Shown here: piece after piece, positions 1,102 to 19,500 of the stretch | Layout: every line of letters begins with the position of its first letter | How positions within the stretch are numbered: position 1 is the stretch's first letter | NCBI RefSeq assembly: GCF_036669915.1 | Contig: NC_089319.1 | Location: 18,300,204-18,364,203 of the forward strand | DNA length: 64,000 nt | Reading direction: 5' to 3' | Source of the DNA: Pocillopora verrucosa | Lineage: Eukaryota; Cnidaria; Anthozoa; Scleractinia; Pocilloporidae | The notes under the pieces: model-generated | Seen by the model: the letters and a program-made list of their open reading frames with translations, nothing else | Database searches by the model: none | What the model was told of the DNA's origin: nothing | Translations under genes and position numbers: made by a program

Positions 1102-1311
1102 TGTTTTTAAACTTGACGAAATTCTTTCCGAAAGAACCCGAATGACTTATGGCCGTAAATACGGCAAGATCTTCCATAAACTGAACAATTTTTGAGTGAG
1201 TAAATGGTAGTTAAAATAGAGGTGATGCAAATTTAAGAGAGATGCCTCAGCGAAACATTTTCATTTCCGTAACGATAAAGGTGATTTAAAAGGCTTCCAA
1301 ACAAACTTTGA

Positions 1312-3460
1312 AACATTAAAGTTCACACGGCAACCAGGTGGACAATCAGACATAGCAAACAGAGAGAGAAACATGACAGAAAACTCCGTCACTTGCTCAG
1401 TAAGAGGTCTCCTGTTAATTCAGGCTCATCTCTGAAAGATAAATGGGTCATGAACCTTTCCTCCAAGGAATTATCCGCGCTGGAACGGAGTGGTTTAGAG
1501 AAGGGTCTAAAGTTTGCTATTGCTCCTCGCAAAATACCGACCGCCGAAATTGTCGCCGCTGTTGAGGTTGATCTCTCAACTCGACGACGATCGTAGGCAT
1601 TTGGTAAGAGCAGAAGTAAGTAGCGTACTCAGGCGTGCTAAACCTCCTCCCAAAAACATTCAAAAGGATGTTTTCAATGCGCTTATAACTCTCAAAAAGG
1701 ATCCGGACAGGCTCGTATTATCTGCTGACAAGGGTAATTGTGTTGTGGTTATGGACAAACAGCAATATCACGACAAAGCTTTGTCTCTGCTCAATGACAA
1801 GAGTACGTATGCTGTCTTAAACTCTGATCCAACCAGTAAAACTCAAAGAAAGTTAAACAAAATGTTGCTTGATTTGAAAAAAGCTGGCAGAATTAGTGAC
1901 TCTGCGTACAAAATGTTATACAGTAGTGACGGCTTATGTCCACGTTTTTATGGCTTACCTAAAATTCATAAACCGGGAATTCCTTTGAGACCCATTGTCT
2001 CTTTTGTTAATTCTCCGACTTATGCAATTTCTGGTTATCTTGCGAGAATTTTGTCGCCTGTTGTTGGGAATACTGATTACACTGTCAAAAATTCCTGCGA
2101 ATTTACGGATTTCATAAGAGATAAAACTCTTGACGCTTGTGAAGAATTAGTATCTTTCGACGTTGTTTCGCTCTTCACTAAAATCCCAGTTGATCTTGCC
2201 GTTAAGGTTGCGGAGGAAAGACTCAGAGAAGATGCTTCCCTAGGACAAAGAACTTCTTTGCCTGTGGAGGATATTATTCATCTGCTGTCTTTTTGCCTCA
2301 AAACCACGCAATTTACATATAACGGCACATACTATCAACAAGTTTTTGGTACAGCTATGGGTTCGCCTGTTTCTGCTGTCATTGCTAACATGGTAATGGA
2401 AGACGTGGAACAAAGGGCCTTGGCCACTTCACCGGTTAAACCCTTTTTCTGGAAACGATATGTCGATGATGTTATTTCTGCGGTATCCGGAAATGAAGCG
2501 GAGCGCCTCTTGTCGCATTTGAATTCAGTAGAGCCGTCGATCCAATTCACCCTTGAACGTGAAAAGGATAGACATTTGCCCTTTCTTGATTTAAATGTGT
2601 CCAGAGGGGTTCAGGGTAATTTAGAGACAAGTGTCTATCGTAAACCCACCCACACCGACAAATACCTCGCTTTCGATTCTCACCATCCTATTTGCCATAA
2701 AAAGTCTGTAGCCAAAACTTTACTTAGGAGGGCTGATTGTCTACCATCATCACTCGATTCGAAGGCTGAGGAGAGGAAATATGTTTCCAGTGTCCTAAAG
2801 GCAAATGGCTATACAAAAACTTTTCTCCGTAACTGCCAAAAACCAGTTACAAATAGTAACGCTCTTGATGAAAGGGAACCAGCGACTGGTTTTGCTGTTA
2901 TTCCTTACATACAGGGTGTTACTGAACCCATCAAGAGAATTTTGAATAGCCACAACGTTAAAGTTGCTCAAAAACCTTTTCAGACTTTGGGGCATATTTT
3001 CGCCAAGCCTAAGGATCCTGTCACGAAAGAACAACGAACCGACGCCATTTATTCTATTCCTTGCAATGACTGTGATAACGAATACATCGGACAGACCAAA
3101 CGCCAGTTTGGTACACGGTTAAAAGAGCACCAAAAAGCGGTTTTTCTTTGCAAAAAGGAAAATTCAGCTTTATCGGAGCATACTTGCCTAACCAACCATA
3201 CAATTGGGTGGGATAATTCTAAAATTATCACTACTAATCGGCGTTACCACCAGCGCCTTTGTTTGGAGGCTTGGCACATTAACTCCGCCCACGCTCCTTT
3301 AAATCGTGACGATGGCGGTCTGCTTCCTGACGCCTATTTACACCTCGTCAGAAAAAAAAGGCCGCTAATTAGTGATCATATAAAAGGACCTCTTGTTGCA
3401 GCGTTTAGATTACCCCTGATGAAGGCACTAGACAGGAGTGTCGAAACGTTGGGTCTATGA
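1312..3460 (+). mobile_element. Penelope-like retroelement, RT + GIY-YIG, one frameshift
   Basis: Nearly complete coding region of a Penelope-like element (PLE). PLE proteins join a telomerase-related reverse transcriptase to a GIY-YIG endonuclease. In frame 1 (1312-1596) the N-terminal part reads WVMNLSSKELSALERSGLEK and APRKIPTAEIVAAVE, a typical PLE leader. From about 1570 the protein continues in frame 2 to the TGA at 3458-3460, so one small indel (the run gatctctcaactc looks like a lost TC unit) breaks the ORF. RT motifs visible: YGLPKIHKPGIPLRPIVS, SFDVVSLFTKIP, GTAMGSPVSAVIANMVME, and the catalytic YVDD at 2459-2470. The GIY-YIG module follows: AIYSIPCNDCDNEYIGQT, with EYIGQ at 3080-3094. 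No in-frame stop lies in the 1.9 kb after the frameshift, so the copy is young. The 5' limit is uncertain; a TGA at 1309 closes the frame. The coding tail overlaps a ribozyme-like core, listed separately. Confidence 0.93.
3416..3455 (+). ncRNA. hammerhead-ribozyme-like core in the PLE tail
   Basis: The order of conserved hammerhead elements is present: CTGATGA at 3416-3422, a 6-bp stem II (GGCACT 3424-3429 with AGTGTC 3437-3442, one G-U pair, loop of 7), then GAAAC at 3443-3447, a 5-nt loop, and GTC at 3453-3455. The C3447-G3453 and A3446-T3454 pairs would form a 2-bp stem III. PLEs are known to carry minimal-stem-III hammerheads. One extra A (3423) sits before stem II, and I see no convincing stem I here, so activity as a monomer is doubtful. 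It also encodes the last residues of the PLE protein (MKALDRSVETLGL). Confidence 0.55.
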
Positions 3461-4764
3461 ATTGTAACTTCTTCGGTTACATTCATTAAATCTGCAAACC
3501 AGTGTAGCTTCAAACTATGTTTGAAACATTATTTTTACAAGTATCTGTCACAATCTGACACCTGTCAATTAGAGAGCGTGCAAGAAAAAAAAAAAAGTAG
3601 GAACATTTGAAAACCAACAGAACTAGTTTGGCAAGGACTGTCACGACAATGTTTTCTTAAAAATCAGTTAATGATCTAACGGAAAGTATTATTTACTCTC
3701 ATCGACCATTCATTCATGTACGAAGATTTAACTCTGTTCATTAAGTAAACGGCGAGGAAAGTAATTGTGAGTAAATTCAATTTTTTATTTTGAAGTTGTG
3801 GGAGTTTGCTCGTTTGTTTGCTGTAATGGCGTGTTTAACTCTGATCTTTCCTTCACAAAAACTAAATTCGAACGGCACACTCCAACGAGACACAAGGGAA
3901 TTTAATGCAGCCTTTTCTCAATTCCTTCAATTTCTGTTGTGCAATTTAAGGTACAAATGTCCAAATTGAATGGAATTGGAAAGACTCACCAGGAGCGTAT
4001 ATTTGTTGTAGAACTTAAATTAAAACTTCGCTCGCTTTTTTTTTACTATGAACAAATTGCTCGAGAAAATTCAGATATTAAATGAATGAAAGTTCCATCT
4101 TTCAGTTTAACTGTAACCAAATACCTCTAGTTTCAACTTTCTGGGTACTTTTTGTGAACGATTAAAATTAATTGCAGACGGTTTTTAGGCCGCTTGTCAA
4201 CCAACGTAATGACACTGTTGTTTATACAAATTCATTCTGAAACCAATATTTTTCTGTCAACCAAAGTGATTTGATAGAGAGAAAAGGGAGGATTCATAAG
4301 TTATTTATCGGCTTGAGGTAGTGACCGACATGTTTGCTTAAAAATACTGCCCAGCCGGAAAACGAGGTATATTTATGAAAAATGACAACGAAAGTTGGGA
4401 TGTACTCGGCGACTCACGAATGCGTTACCGTGGCCCGTGGGCAGAGATAGGAAAATACTGACCGGGTAAAGAACCAATCAGATTGCAAGATTCGTTACCG
4501 TGCCCTCTAAAAAAACAATAAAAAAACATATCATCCTATCAATTTTATCGATATATTTAGAGCAAGCCGCAAGAAAATATCCATCACTCAGTGGTCTGAT
4601 TATTCATAACTGTCACAGATATATTTACATACATGCACAGACACGTTGAGTGGAACGCTTGGGCTGCCTCGAGAAAGCGCTTCGGTTAAGCACACCTTCC
4701 TCGAGAAGCTGTCAGACAATGATCTTTTGTTAATACGGGTACCAGTCGAAGAGCCAGTTTATCC
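3461..4764. other. intergenic; degenerate repeat at about 4300-4515
   Basis: No gene seen. A small hairpin (tgtaac/gttaca, 3464-3482) lies just after the PLE stop and may belong to its 3' end. At about 4300-4515 the text (ttatttatcggctt, aaaatactgccc, gattcgttaccg) resembles a decayed half of the foldback family at 938-1101 together with a second MITE; this is a weak, by-eye match. The TRIM promoter should lie in the last few hundred bases, without a clear TATA box. Confidence 0.4.
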
Positions 4765-6933
4765 ATGGATGTTCAACAACTGTTTAAAAGCCTCAGGAAA
4801 GAAGCTGAATGTCCTCTGTGCTTAGAGACAGTCAAAGATCCCAAGACTCTGCCATGTTTACACTCATTCTGTTTGGTATGCCTCGACAAACACGCTAACT
4901 ACGCAAGAAGACAGCTTCAGACAGCAATCAAATGTCCAGTTTGTCAGGCTAGCTTTCAAATCCCTCAAGAAGACACATTTGGCGGCCTACCCGCGTCTTT
5001 TCATCTCAACCGATTGGTGGATCTCCTCGCTCTAACGGATGGTGGTTCAGAGTCCCAACAATGTGGCAGTTGCGAAGAAAACAACATTGCGACTCACTAT
5101 TGTTTTGAGTGCCAGAGCTTTCTCTGTACAACTTGTTATAAAGCTCATCAACGCTTCAAGGCCACAAGAGGTCACAAAAATATCTCTGTCGACAATTTGC
5201 AAGCAGACGATGTCGAAAAGTTGATTCGTAGACCAGTCATGTGTTCAGAGCAATATCATCAAGATCAACCACTGGAGTATTATTGCAAAGATTGTAACGT
5301 TTGCTCCTGCATAAAGTGCAGTGTTGTAAGTCATAATCACCACACTATGGTTGATATGCAGAAAGCTGCAGATGAACAAAAGATGCAAATAGACGAGGCT
5401 TTGAAGAAAGTGAAAGCGGAAGTTGTTATTTTTGAAAATGAAATGAAGAACCAAACTGAATTAATGAACAAAAACAAAACACAAATATCGGCTGCCAGAG
5501 AGAAGATGAACGAGACTGTGGACGATTGTATTCGCTTATTAACGGAGCATAAGGCGTCAATGAATGCCAAATTCGATGAAATTAATCAAGCCCATCAAAA
5601 AGCTCACGCAACACATCTGGAAAACTTCCAGCTCGCTGTCGCGCAGTTGAAAAGTTCTTTGGAACAAGGGGAGAATATCTTGGAGAGGAATATCAATGCT
5701 GAAATTCTGCAAACGAAGCCAGTGATTATTGGACGCTGCGAGGACCTTTTAAATGCGAAAAAACCCGAAATATACAAACCACCCCGTGTTCATTACGCAG
5801 TAGAGCAGAAATTGGATATTTCAAATCGAGTTGTTGTGAGCCATACGGATCCCTCATCGACACTTGTCGAACTCTGGCAGGAGAAGGTAGAAGAACAGAA
5901 TGAGACATATTTTACTATTATCACAAGGGATTCAGAGGAAAGACCGTGCTATAATGAGGATGATTACATAAAATGTGACATTCGCACTTTAACAGGGGAT
6001 AGCTTCGAAACCGTACATCTAAAGATTGAGGACAACGAAGATGGTAGCTACATAGTAGAATACACACCACCTCATACCGGATTGTATGAAGTGAAAGTTG
6101 AAGTCAATGGACAGCCGCTGAATGGTAGTCCGTGGAGTGTGCAAGTCATACCTCATCAGTATCAGTTGAAGTTCAGTTTTGGTTCAAATGGCAGTGGACC
6201 AGGACAGTTTGATGGACCTTATGATATTGCTGTTGATAAGGAAACAGGAATTGTTGCCGTATCTGACTATGGAAATAAAATAATTCAGCTGTTTGGCACT
6301 AATGGCAAATACCTGAGAGAGATAGGACTGAGGGCTAGCTGTTGCTCATTAGACTTTACCAAGTCCGGTCAAATAATTGCCGTTACTCCTGGTGATGTTC
6401 ACAAAATTTCTTTGTTTTCTAAGGAGGGTCAGTTTGTCAAGCACATCGACAATGAGCACTTGAAGTTTCCTTTTCATATATCGACTGATGATGAAGAGTT
6501 TCAAACGATTTGTGATCTAGGGAATAATGAAGTCATAGTCATCGCTCCTGACAGTACAGAGCCATTTACACGTATCACTGCTTCAGAGCATGATCGATCA
6601 GTAATGTGCGCCATTTGGCACGAAGAAACACACCGTTACTTTGTCTCTGATTCCAAAGCTGACCTTGTCAAGGTTTTTGATGAGGAAGGAAATTTTATGT
6701 ATGAAATTGGGCATGGAAGGTTACTGAATCCTTTTGGACTTGCTATTGACAAATTTAACAATTTGATTGTCTGTGATGCTGGGAACCAGAGACTCAAAGT
6801 ATTTACTACAGAAGGAGACTTTCTCTCAGAGACTGTACAATGTTTCCACACACCGCGGTTTATTGCCGTGTCTAAAAAAGGGGAAGTTCTGGTCACTGAC
6901 TATGAGAAAAACTGTATTTTTCTATTTCAATAG
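4765..6933 (+). CDS. TRIM-NHL protein (RING, two B-boxes, coiled coil, filamin, NHL)
   Basis: Single-exon gene for a 722-residue TRIM protein of the TRIM2/3/71 architecture, expected to be a cytoplasmic E3 ubiquitin ligase. The RING ligands are C16, C19, C31, H33, C36, C39, C57 and C60 (C3HC4). B-box 1 spans about 100-137 (CGSCEENNIATHYC) and B-box 2 about 160-193. Residues about 197-310 are a charged coiled coil. A filamin/ABP280 domain (about 360-463) ends in the usual GSPWSVQV strand. NHL repeats fill about 470-720, for example GPGQFDGPYDIAVD and NPFGLAIDKFNNLIVCDAGN. The ATG at 4765 leads directly into the RING, so the start is secure; the stop is TAG. Cnidarians carry many intronless TRIM genes of this kind. 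A tandem partial copy lies 1.5 kb downstream on the same strand. The substrate or RNA target of the NHL propeller cannot be read from the sequence. Confidence 0.95.
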   Translation: MDVQQLFKSLRKEAECPLCLETVKDPKTLPCLHSFCLVCLDKHANYARRQLQTAIKCPVCQASFQIPQEDTFGGLPASFHLNRLVDLLALTDGGSESQQCGSCEENNIATHYCFECQSFLCTTCYKAHQRFKATRGHKNISVDNLQADDVEKLIRRPVMCSEQYHQDQPLEYYCKDCNVCSCIKCSVVSHNHHTMVDMQKAADEQKMQIDEALKKVKAEVVIFENEMKNQTELMNKNKTQISAAREKMNETVDDCIRLLTEHKASMNAKFDEINQAHQKAHATHLENFQLAVAQLKSSLEQGENILERNINAEILQTKPVIIGRCEDLLNAKKPEIYKPPRVHYAVEQKLDISNRVVVSHTDPSSTLVELWQEKVEEQNETYFTIITRDSEERPCYNEDDYIKCDIRTLTGDSFETVHLKIEDNEDGSYIVEYTPPHTGLYEVKVEVNGQPLNGSPWSVQVIPHQYQLKFSFGSNGSGPGQFDGPYDIAVDKETGIVAVSDYGNKIIQLFGTNGKYLREIGLRASCCSLDFTKSGQIIAVTPGDVHKISLFSKEGQFVKHIDNEHLKFPFHISTDDEEFQTICDLGNNEVIVIAPDSTEPFTRITASEHDRSVMCAIWHEETHRYFVSDSKADLVKVFDEEGNFMYEIGHGRLLNPFGLAIDKFNNLIVCDAGNQRLKVFTTEGDFLSETVQCFHTPRFIAVSKKGEVLVTDYEKNCIFLFQ

Positions 6934-16545: not shown

Positions 16546-19500
16546 ATGGAAGACATCGTGGCGAGTGTAGCAGATCTCAAGTTTGAAATTGAGATGCAAT
16601 TGTACAACCAAGTTGGAGTTCAGCCTCTTCCGTTCCCGGGCATGGACAGTACCATTCAATAACGAGTTTTGGTCGCGACAAATGTCATTTTTGCTTTTTG
16701 CACGTTAATCTCTTTAAAATTAGTTTAACCCCAAATCCTAGCAATGTACCTGAACCCAGCAGACCTGGTTAAATATCAAACTCTCAACACGCTGATGTCT
16801 ACAATATTTAGACAATATTTATTGTTAATATGAAAGCGATCTTCGTAGTAATGAACACTTCTTAAGTTGTAGTGAAAATAAGGCCTATTAAAAAAAATTC
16901 AGGCCTGTATGGGATTTAATCCCATGGTGTCTGCAATACCAGTGCAGTGCTAAGCCAACTTTTATCTCTGCTTTTGTAGTGTTCATTTCTTAATCTGCAG
17001 TATATATATATATATATGAATTTCATATTTCCACAGTCATTAATGTTTATTGTGTTATCAAATTTGTGATAAAGATGCATGCAAACCATAAAACCATTAA
17101 CTAATTATTGTTGCTACTTGCAGTTTTCCTGTCTTGTTTTGTATGTTCAAAAAGTGTTATGATTTAAATGACAATGGTTATTTTTTGTTGTGTGTTCTTC
17201 TCTTGGCAATGTTTTGTTGTACAGAGTCTGGTGCAGCAGTGTGTGAATTTTTTATGAGGAACATGTGCAATCGAGGGCCAGTTTGTCCTTTTAGACACAC
17301 CAAAGGTGAAAAGACAGTTGTCTGTAAGCACTGGCTGAGAGGGCTGTGTAAAAAGGGTGATCAATGCGAGTTTCTTCATGAATATGACATGACAAAAATG
17401 CCTGAATGTTATTTTTATTCCAAGTTTGGTAAGTGCATACCATTATTATTTTGAAATTGTCATATTTAATGTAGATCAAGTAAACAGATTTTATTTTATT
17501 TAATGAAGAGTTACATCAGATCATGGTACCTTTATCTAAGAAGACAATTGACTCTTTCAGTGTTCTTTTCTTCCCAAGATTATGAGTGGTTCTTGGAGAA
17601 TTTCAGGAAAACTTGGGGAATGTTGGGGGTAACTTGTGATGGGAGAGGGGTTGCAATATTCAGGGTTTATACGGGTTCCAGAAAACCTGGAAAGTCCTAA
17701 AATTTTATTATGACATTTTCCAAGACTGGGAAGCTCTGAAAATCTTCTTTACTCAAGCAATAAAGTTTTCAGAATTAGTGTTTTAAGAAATGCATGTAGA
17801 CAGGAAAGAGAATTGATTTTGAAATCTTGGGAATGAAATGGTTTAAGGTGAAATTTGGAGTCCTGGAAAAATAAATCTGAGTTCTGGGAAAGTCCTTGAA
17901 ATTTGTTTTTGAAAAGGGGTACAAACCCTGAAAACTGTTTTTCACTCCATGCTAGGAATACTGGTATAAGCTGGAAAGATGGATGGGCCTCTTGGCTTGA
18001 ATACAGACTTTACCTTAACTTTAAACTTGTAAAGGACTAGTTTTCCATTCAGGAGGAGTCTTAATGATGTTGCAGAAACCATAAAGTGCGCCAGTGGATG
18101 TGCATGTCAGATTTGTTAATTAATCAAATGATACATGATACTAAGCTGAAACATGATTTAATTCATGAAGGTGAATGTAGTAACAAAGAATGCCAATACC
18201 TTCACATTGATCCTGAGTCTAAGATAAAGGACTGTCCATGGTATGACAGAGGATTCTGCAAGCATGGTATGTCATTACATATATCTATTACTGTCATGCA
18301 ATTTACTGGTAAAAGGTTGAAAAGATTAAAAGGGATGAACGTATAACTTTTTCTATAATATCAATACCAAGGCAAAAAGATGGGAATAGACAGTAGAAAA
18401 AAAAACTATTAGCCAGGATAAGTGTCTTTTAATGAACAACAACGAAGCCTTATGATAATAGATTTAAAAATGAAGTTCTATATGACTGGCAACCATCTCA
18501 GCATATGTTATTGTTTTATTCTTCAATATCAGGTCCAAGCTGTAGGCATCGACATGTGAGGAGAGTTATTTGCCTGAACTACATGTGTGGGTTTTGTCCT
18601 GAAGGCCCTAAGTGTAAACATATGCAGTAAGTTGTGCTGTGTGATTAGTCAGCTTGCATCTATCATTGCTTTCTTATGAGATTTGACTTTCTTATTTTAT
18701 TTTGTAAGTGATTTATTTGCTGTGTTGATACTACAAGAGACCACAGGGTTTAAATCCTTTGATCACTTTGTGACTTTGTTTTGTTGTTTTAACATAGATC
18801 AATCATTCTCTGCAGGTGCTCCTCTGATATTTATTTAATTATCTATTTATTGTCTAATAGTGGGCAGGGTGACAGTTTTTTTTCCTTTGGGAGGCAAACA
18901 GGCTCTTACTTTTTGTTTAAAATAAAAAAGGAGAGGACAAGTTGGAGCCATGGCAGGAATGTTTGCCTCCCAATGCTATTTCTTGGGTTCTATCTGAACT
19001 TGTTGTTGGATTTCATTCTTGCTACATGTACAAGAATCAACGCAACAAGTTCCAAAGTGAATAAAAGGGTTAAGTTTCTTATGAAAGTGTGGTGCTGCAT
19101 TGGTGGGAGAGTATAACAGGGTAATCTTGTATATCAACTGAGTTGATAACTTAAATTGGCCACCATAAAGAGTTTAAAAGCTGACGTTTTGATTGTTAAC
19201 CCTTCATCAGAGTGCTCTGACAAAGGGTTCACCCTCAGAATGTCAGCTTTTGTACTCTTTACAGTGGCCAATTTATGTTATCAACTCTTTTAATGATACT
19301 TAAGTTCCAAAGTGACCTAATACTACTTAGATGAAGAGCCCCCCATGTAATTGGACCATTTCTTTTTTTTATTGTTAAATGGTTGCATGGGGGACCTTTT
19401 TGATGACTGAACTGATGTTTGACTCAGAATGAACAAAGGCCTGTATAGAGAAGATAGGACTTTGATGCTTTTTTTTTTTTTTTTTCCAGTCCAAGATTTG

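Follow-up and report, generated by a model that had tools for sequence, protein, structure and literature searches.

A minimal type I hammerhead ribozyme of the kind carried by Penelope-like elements (PLEs), dimeric through the self-complementary stretch ACGU and with predicted cleavage after U3450, is very probably present near the 3′ end of a PLE insertion in the stretch of Pocillopora verrucosa DNA analysed here (the window; 64,000 nucleotides of contig NC_089319.1, positions 18,300,204 to 18,364,203 of the forward strand). The RNA would belong to an already-known type, with catalysis predicted from its sequence, and minimal type I hammerheads of PLEs are reportedly the subject of work by Cervera and De la Pena in 2014 and, as dimeric forms, by Lunse, Weinberg and Breaker in 2017. 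As far as published accounts of the minimal type I dimeric hammerheads of PLEs describe them, the location in a PLE, the lack of a proper helix III and the dimeric fold are the same as here, and these RNAs occur in thousands of copies in many animal genomes (PMC7761336, PMC6155905, PMC6466107); a double-hammerhead layout has also been described for PLEs (PMC6466107, PMC7761336). An earlier reading of the window, made from the sequence only, had proposed a minimal hammerhead in a Penelope-like element and raised the question of whether it works only as a dimer; such a hammerhead, probably working only as a dimer, is supported by the evidence below. The features of the insertion and of the motif are given in Table 1.

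Table 1 Features of the PLE insertion and its predicted hammerhead (positions in the window)
Feature	Position	Strand	Remark
Left target-site duplication TTTGAAACATTA	1307-1318	.	Identical 12-mer at 3520-3531
Inverted 37-nt long tail (element 3′ terminus, antisense)	1319-1355	-	Joined to body via shared TAG 1353-1355
5′-truncated PLE body, family A	1353-3519	+	
Open frame, RT and GIY-YIG	1511-3460	+	N-terminal part in another frame, 1312-1596
A-run	3352-3359	+	Length goes with ORF ending before or running through motif
Stem I 5′ strand ACCC	3412-3415	+	Pairs with 3451-3454; register backed by covariation over families
Catalytic core C3-A9, CUGAUGA	3416-3422	+	Read directly from window sequence
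Inserted A between A9 and stem II	3423	+	Family-wide, A or U
Stem II GGCACU 3424-3429 / AGUGUC 3437-3442, 7-nt loop	3424-3442	+	6 bp, one G.U pair
Core G12-A14, GAA	3443-3445	+	Window sequence; GAAAC starts at 3443
ACGU, self-complementary	3446-3449	+	Stem III only between two copies
H17 = U	3450	+	Predicted cleavage 3′ of U3450; register from stem I
Stem I 3′ strand GGGU	3451-3454	+	Covariation over families
Right target-site duplication TTTGAAACATTA	3520-3531	.	Flanks insertion end 3519

The components listed in the sequence-only reading (CTGATGA, a 6-bp stem II, GAAAC and GTC, in that order and inside the reading frame) were all confirmed at 3416-3455, with GTC at 3453-3455 and every named element inside the open frame 1511-3460, and the hammerhead core order CUGANGA...GAA-A15.1...U16.1-H17 was found at 3416-3422, 3443-3446 and 3449-3450. 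The bare pattern CTGANGA..GAAAC was at chance level, with two occurrences in the window versus 1.42 expected and 41 of 100 shuffled sequences reaching two. The whole arrangement (at least 4 bp of stem II, ACGU or ACGCGU, H17, and at least 3 bp of stem I; a pattern set after the family study) was present once in the window, both strands considered, and in none of 200 dinucleotide-shuffled windows. Searching the genome, a 353-Mb assembly of 52 contigs, with the string CTGANGAAG..CGAAACGTTG gave 599 matches versus 0 for the reversed control. A chance origin of the motif is ruled out by these shuffled-window and genome counts, and the 599 matches also bear out the conservation of the core in other copies, on which the reading had been made to depend.

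Parts of the reading had to be revised. Stem I, which it had described as missing, exists as 4 bp of ACCC/GGGU in another register, and the predicted cleavage site, which it had placed at GTC, is put by the covarying register at GUU^GGG, 3′ of base 3450; a cut at GTC 3453-3455 was rejected, as C3415 would then face U3456 and form no pair. The search patterns fixed CTGANGA and CGAAACG, and in the genome counts also the G after the insert and with it the first stem II pair, whereas H17, stem I and stem II beyond its first pair were left free, so that stem I is independent of the patterns. When each instance was paired with its own flanks, at least 3 contiguous stem I pairs formed in 34 of 53 distinct flank pairs, versus a mean of 12 and a maximum of 23 in 10,000 shuffles, with instances that lacked ACGU or ACGCGU, had G as H17 or lacked G..C stem II ends dropped from the test. 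The register was specific (51/71 paired here versus 0-2/71 in five slid registers), and for six hand-chosen family representatives only one of 720 flank permutations, the true one, reached the observed stem I total.

Covariation was scored in 21 sequences, with family A left out, taken from a set of 53 in which locus L052 is a family-A copy missed by the filter. In this set 80% of cells were paired versus 57.1% after shuffling, 57 cells changed on both sides versus 26.1, and the covariation score was 0.635 versus 0.216, with no slid register above 0.173. Each of the five stem I pairs showed a change on both sides in one sequence or another. Counts of pairs with a both-side change (8 versus 7.4 shuffled, a value reached by 251 of 500 shuffles) and of pair types (24 versus 20.1, reached by 15 of 500) lay nearer to the shuffled values. 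Pairing fails at the outer two stem I positions in 8/21 and 9/21 sequences and at the fifth position of stem II in 14/21, and the core C3-A9 is invariant except for N7 in these 21 other-family sequences, partly since the search patterns fixed it. Stems I and II of the hammerhead covary across the families. A covariance model built from the 21 sequences had window 3409-3457 as the best of its 5 matches, in the same register (42.1 bits, with a rough E of 2.4e-10), and scored six other family-A motifs at 34.7-41.4 bits. The Rfam covariance models gave no hammerhead match in the window and none in 20 of 20 related loci, seven of them insert-free, and a search of the genome with RF00163 gave no match, its controls likewise giving none. 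The reading had counted the absence of a covariance-model match against itself; that absence holds for Rfam, but as a low-power result, since all 20 related loci were blank too, and the window is matched by the model built here.

The extra A before stem II, which the reading had treated as an oddity of one copy, is indeed present at 3423, where it lies unpaired between A9 and stem II in the hammerhead fold, but several families regularly carry it, and in others U stands in its place. Genome matches with A at this position numbered 2,489 (481 and 2008 from two disjoint patterns; reversed controls 8 and 1), those with another base 493 (control 14), many of the matches listed showing U, and those without an insert 150 (control 26), a set that overlaps the 493 where the base is G; the 481, 2008 and 493 are pattern matches rather than checked copies, and some of the 493 can be read as insert-free. 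Stem II formed at least 3 pairs with one base skipped in 43 of 58 middle segments, versus 1/58 with none skipped and 1/58 with two, the first pair being fixed by the pattern. Inserts of one or two bases at the A9/stem II position are allowed in known hammerhead alignments, as these are presented in PMC10085705. An insert of A or U as the rule may set the motifs here apart from the PLE minimal hammerheads published earlier.

Five main groups of motifs were read: A, to which the window belongs, B, C, D and U. Family B has the form ..AUCGC CUGAAGA A GACU..AGUC GAA ACGU C GCGAU.., family C has ACGCGU in place of ACGU, family D has a short stem II and stem I GCU/AGC, and family U has U as the insert and stem I UGACU/AGUCA. 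The window ORF matched coding sequence beside the motif at four family-B loci (L065, L086, L087 and L090; 29-36%), at a D locus (L066; 31%) and at a U locus (L091; 48% over 33 residues), which makes those families PLEs as well; no coding match to the window ORF was found in a C locus. Loci L061-L090 are the first places on contig C1 in list order and not a random sample. Motif numbers here are on a scale similar to that in the coral Acropora millepora, whose type I motifs are said to number more than 6000 and to fall into 16 families, 1508 of the motifs being canonical and the others like PLE/Terminon minimal variants (PMC7229834). Thousands of motif matches, several covarying families and readable target-site duplications make this a usable data set. 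A small insert-free group with stem I CCC/GGG was also seen (C6:11906360 and C2:11104753); its members have an apparent 2-bp stem III with a loop (GAA AC GGGCUU GU C/A GGG) and are possibly hammerheads that fold alone. A decayed head-to-head pair of D type lies at window 19140-19290, the minus copy at 19176-19217 scoring 22.5 bits (E 2.4e-4) with the model built here and a mutated plus copy, read by eye, following directly after it.

The insertion itself has the inverted head-to-head ends, one-sided tail and target-site duplication of a PLE. YVDD and YIG are typical of PLEs. Profile searches with the ORF gave RVT_1 at E 1.3e-5 and GIY-YIG at E 0.026, neither reaching its Pfam cut-off, so that the PLE trait of both domains in one ORF is suggested only weakly by profile; a search of solved structures with the ORF returned nothing at E 0.01. 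Among the best-scored candidates, 39 other places matched the body from query position 35 or 39 at 93-98% identity. Position 1353 was rejected as a fixed 5′ end of the element, as other copies extend further upstream, and the reading's description of a nearly intact copy does not hold, the window copy being 5′-truncated at 1353 relative to those copies and its frame being split between 1312-1596 and 1511-3460. The motif lies about 65-100 nt from element 3′ ends. Of 65 family-A 3′ ends, 25 carried the full 37-nt tail, 32 matched 5-15 nt of it and 8 were unplaced, and wherever both tails of a pair could be read (9 of 9 pairs) a long tail stood opposite a short one, with a shared flank of 8-13 bp (the longest common string, taken without a chance control), 4 more pairs not being callable. 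The Penelope of Adineta vaga is described with the same anatomy: its pLTRs are inverted and head-to-head, one of them may carry a 31-bp tail, and the target-site duplication is short (PMC3846280). Here the tail, measured from CTATG, has at least 37 nt, and the duplication in the window has 12 bp. The pairing of long and short tails agrees with that element and with the extension of both target strands reported for PAc, the Poseidon PLE of Anolis (PMC11167929). To the left of the insertion, at about 934-1318, the window holds a high-copy palindromic repeat with 52-nt arms at 965-1016 and 1020-1071; a query of 700-1700 gave 1718 first-look genome candidates, of which 40 were scored.

As in the minimal dimeric hammerheads of PLEs, helix III is absent and a self-complementary stretch, ACGU at 3446-3449, stands in its place. 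The 110 instances examined, which include many from family A and some genomic copies counted twice, had ACGU or ACGCGU in 103 cases, with ACG fixed by the patterns. Both stretches are self-complementary and too short for a hairpin, and stem III would therefore need two copies. These would pair through ACGU, either as tandem pLTRs in one transcript or as two RNAs, and the resulting double hammerhead would cut after U3450 to leave a 2′,3′-cyclic phosphate and a 5′-OH. Among the matches listed (the first 200 of the 599 and 2008), close neighbours were head-to-head in 18 of 21 cases, on the same strand in 3 and tail-to-tail in none; a first count had used 92 and 88 places from the two lists of 100, a few of the omitted ones being A-like or D-like, and a recount of all 200 gave the same result. 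A partner in cis would thus usually be absent. The window insertion has no upstream same-strand partner motif, so that on its own the window copy would be limited to action in trans or within a longer read-through RNA. In two copies a same-strand motif ends 433-434 bp before the body start, and one of these, locus L135, is by its coordinates a partial direct tandem (whole motif read at C3:27400277-27400312, bases read up to 27400440, body placed from 27400779 by coordinates), the arrangement that cis-dimers need. By nearest-neighbour energies for two copies joined by a linker, the double hammerhead was less stable than two separate stem I/II folds in four of five families, and in all five it fell short of the minimum-energy fold of the tandem.

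If cleaved 3′ products were integrated, copies would begin at GGGUCUAUG with a random preceding base. Among exact family-A matches to the 34 bases 3′ of the cut site, 422 had U in the preceding position and 6 had another base, which point mutation could explain, and family-A 5′ ends showed no pile-up at the predicted position of the cut. To this extent, integrated family-A copies would derive from RNA uncut at U3450, in agreement with the in vitro work on PAc. The PAc hammerhead likewise overlaps a PLE ORF boundary and its uncut RNA is described as the main insertion template, but it overlaps the ORF start at the pLTR junction, whereas the window motif is found at the ORF end or immediately beyond it; cleavage by the PAc hammerhead is reported not to occur without the protein of the element (PMC11167929). 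Cleavage of a lone copy would separate the ORF from the point where reverse transcription starts. Possible roles of the ribozyme are the resolution of tandem transcripts, a restraint on activity or the pairing of templates. The 5′ ends of D-type instances with long flanks (L027, L061-L084 and L134) were distributed differently from family-A breakpoints: 16 of the 20 begin 0-16 nt upstream of the core, often head-to-head and a few bases apart, and only L066, L068, L082 and L084 extend more than 70 nt upstream, whereas the breakpoints in 24 family-A copies, taken with three reference copies, spread from 0 to 576 nt, where a value of 0 may also mean that no alignment was anchored. From these positions the 5′ edge of the ribozyme looks like a stop or start point.

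Several of these observations would also fit a motif conserved for RNA dimerisation or structure, which pairs templates or stops the reverse transcriptase, with cleavage absent or incidental. The palindromic ACGU is kept, the head-to-head neighbours (18/21, among the matches listed) have their 3′ ends outward, D-type copies begin just upstream of the core (16/20) and family-A copies do not pile up at the cut site; for PAc, moreover, it is reported that ribozyme mutants insert, that the protein extends both target strands and that cleavage needs the protein (PMC11167929). We nevertheless consider this explanation unlikely, as the catalytic residues CUGANGA, GAA and NUH are kept although a plain kissing element would not need them, with the proviso that the search patterns fixed most of these residues. 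Slightly less likely again is a scheme in which the double hammerhead pairs two PLE RNAs via ACGU and so primes both target ends in one complex, giving head-to-head copies with one long and one short tail; the 5′ edge of the dimer would set the reverse transcriptase stop in D-type copies, and cleavage would act in release or quality control and not in making the template.

It is very improbable that the motif is a simple hairpin, CCUGAUG/CGUUGGG around stem II, and no hammerhead. This hairpin is the minimum-energy fold of the window RNA alone (-13.5 versus -11.7 kcal/mol for the hammerhead) and its cells are 83% paired over the 21 sequences, versus 6-44% in slid registers; yet none of its pairs changes on both sides, pairing equals that in shuffles since the columns hardly vary, and 3 of its 6 pairs change on one side only, whereas the hammerhead stems covary. 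As a conserved structure it was rejected for this lack of covariation. Among members of six families that were folded, the stem I and stem II fold was the minimum-energy fold in one B member (with three added pairs) and one U member (with one added), and the A, C, D and E members preferred another fold, which for C, D (two members) and E was 5.3 to 13.9 kcal/mol away from the hammerhead.

Conservation of the bases for the sake of a protein C-terminus is as improbable as the hairpin. The window frame does run through the motif (..LMKALDRSVETLGL, then stop), as it does in 4 of 22 other readable copies; against this, of the 23 readable copies, 18 have an ORF that ends 43-47 nt 5′ of CTGATGA. Run-through would be expected by chance in about a third of copies. 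The 23 come from 63 family-A copies examined, 31 of which had the exact 27-mer before the ORF end, and both halves of one insertion (L004) are counted among the five that run through, as both halves of L016 and L021 are among the 18. Outside family A, only the B copy L090 has an open frame of at least 70 codons reaching the motif, and its frame ends at the UGA inside the core. Dual use of the bases as a feature of the element, which had been raised in the reading, was therefore rejected as a family trait. The overlap with the last codons probably depends on the upstream reading frame and is incidental; it varies from copy to copy and is not to be taken as a designed overlap of protein and ribozyme. 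Where the A-run upstream of the ORF end was plain, in 18 copies, it was 6-11 bases long; in one copy the run was interrupted and in four it was unmeasured. Frameshifting at this run may be an alternative source of the overlap. A literature search on the overlap returned nothing related by title and abstract. Five near-identical PLE copies at C1:14363799-14693292 (L044-L048) lie within 330 kb, share their flanks and are apparently segmental duplicates of one insertion; a subfamily that stops before the motif, based on these five, was for that reason rejected as an argument.

The least probable alternative is that the motif in the window is a functionless relic whose copy number reflects past transposition, to which the truncation and split frame of the window copy and the presumably near-neutral state of copies after insertion would be suited, but the window CTGATGA..GTTG is the same as the commonest family-A sequence, and a relic would in any case be compatible with the dimeric PLE hammerhead preferred here, as constraint would act on active lineages. 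Elsewhere in the window, a TRIM-NHL-like gene with RING, B-box, filamin-repeat and NHL matches by Pfam lies at 4723-6933.
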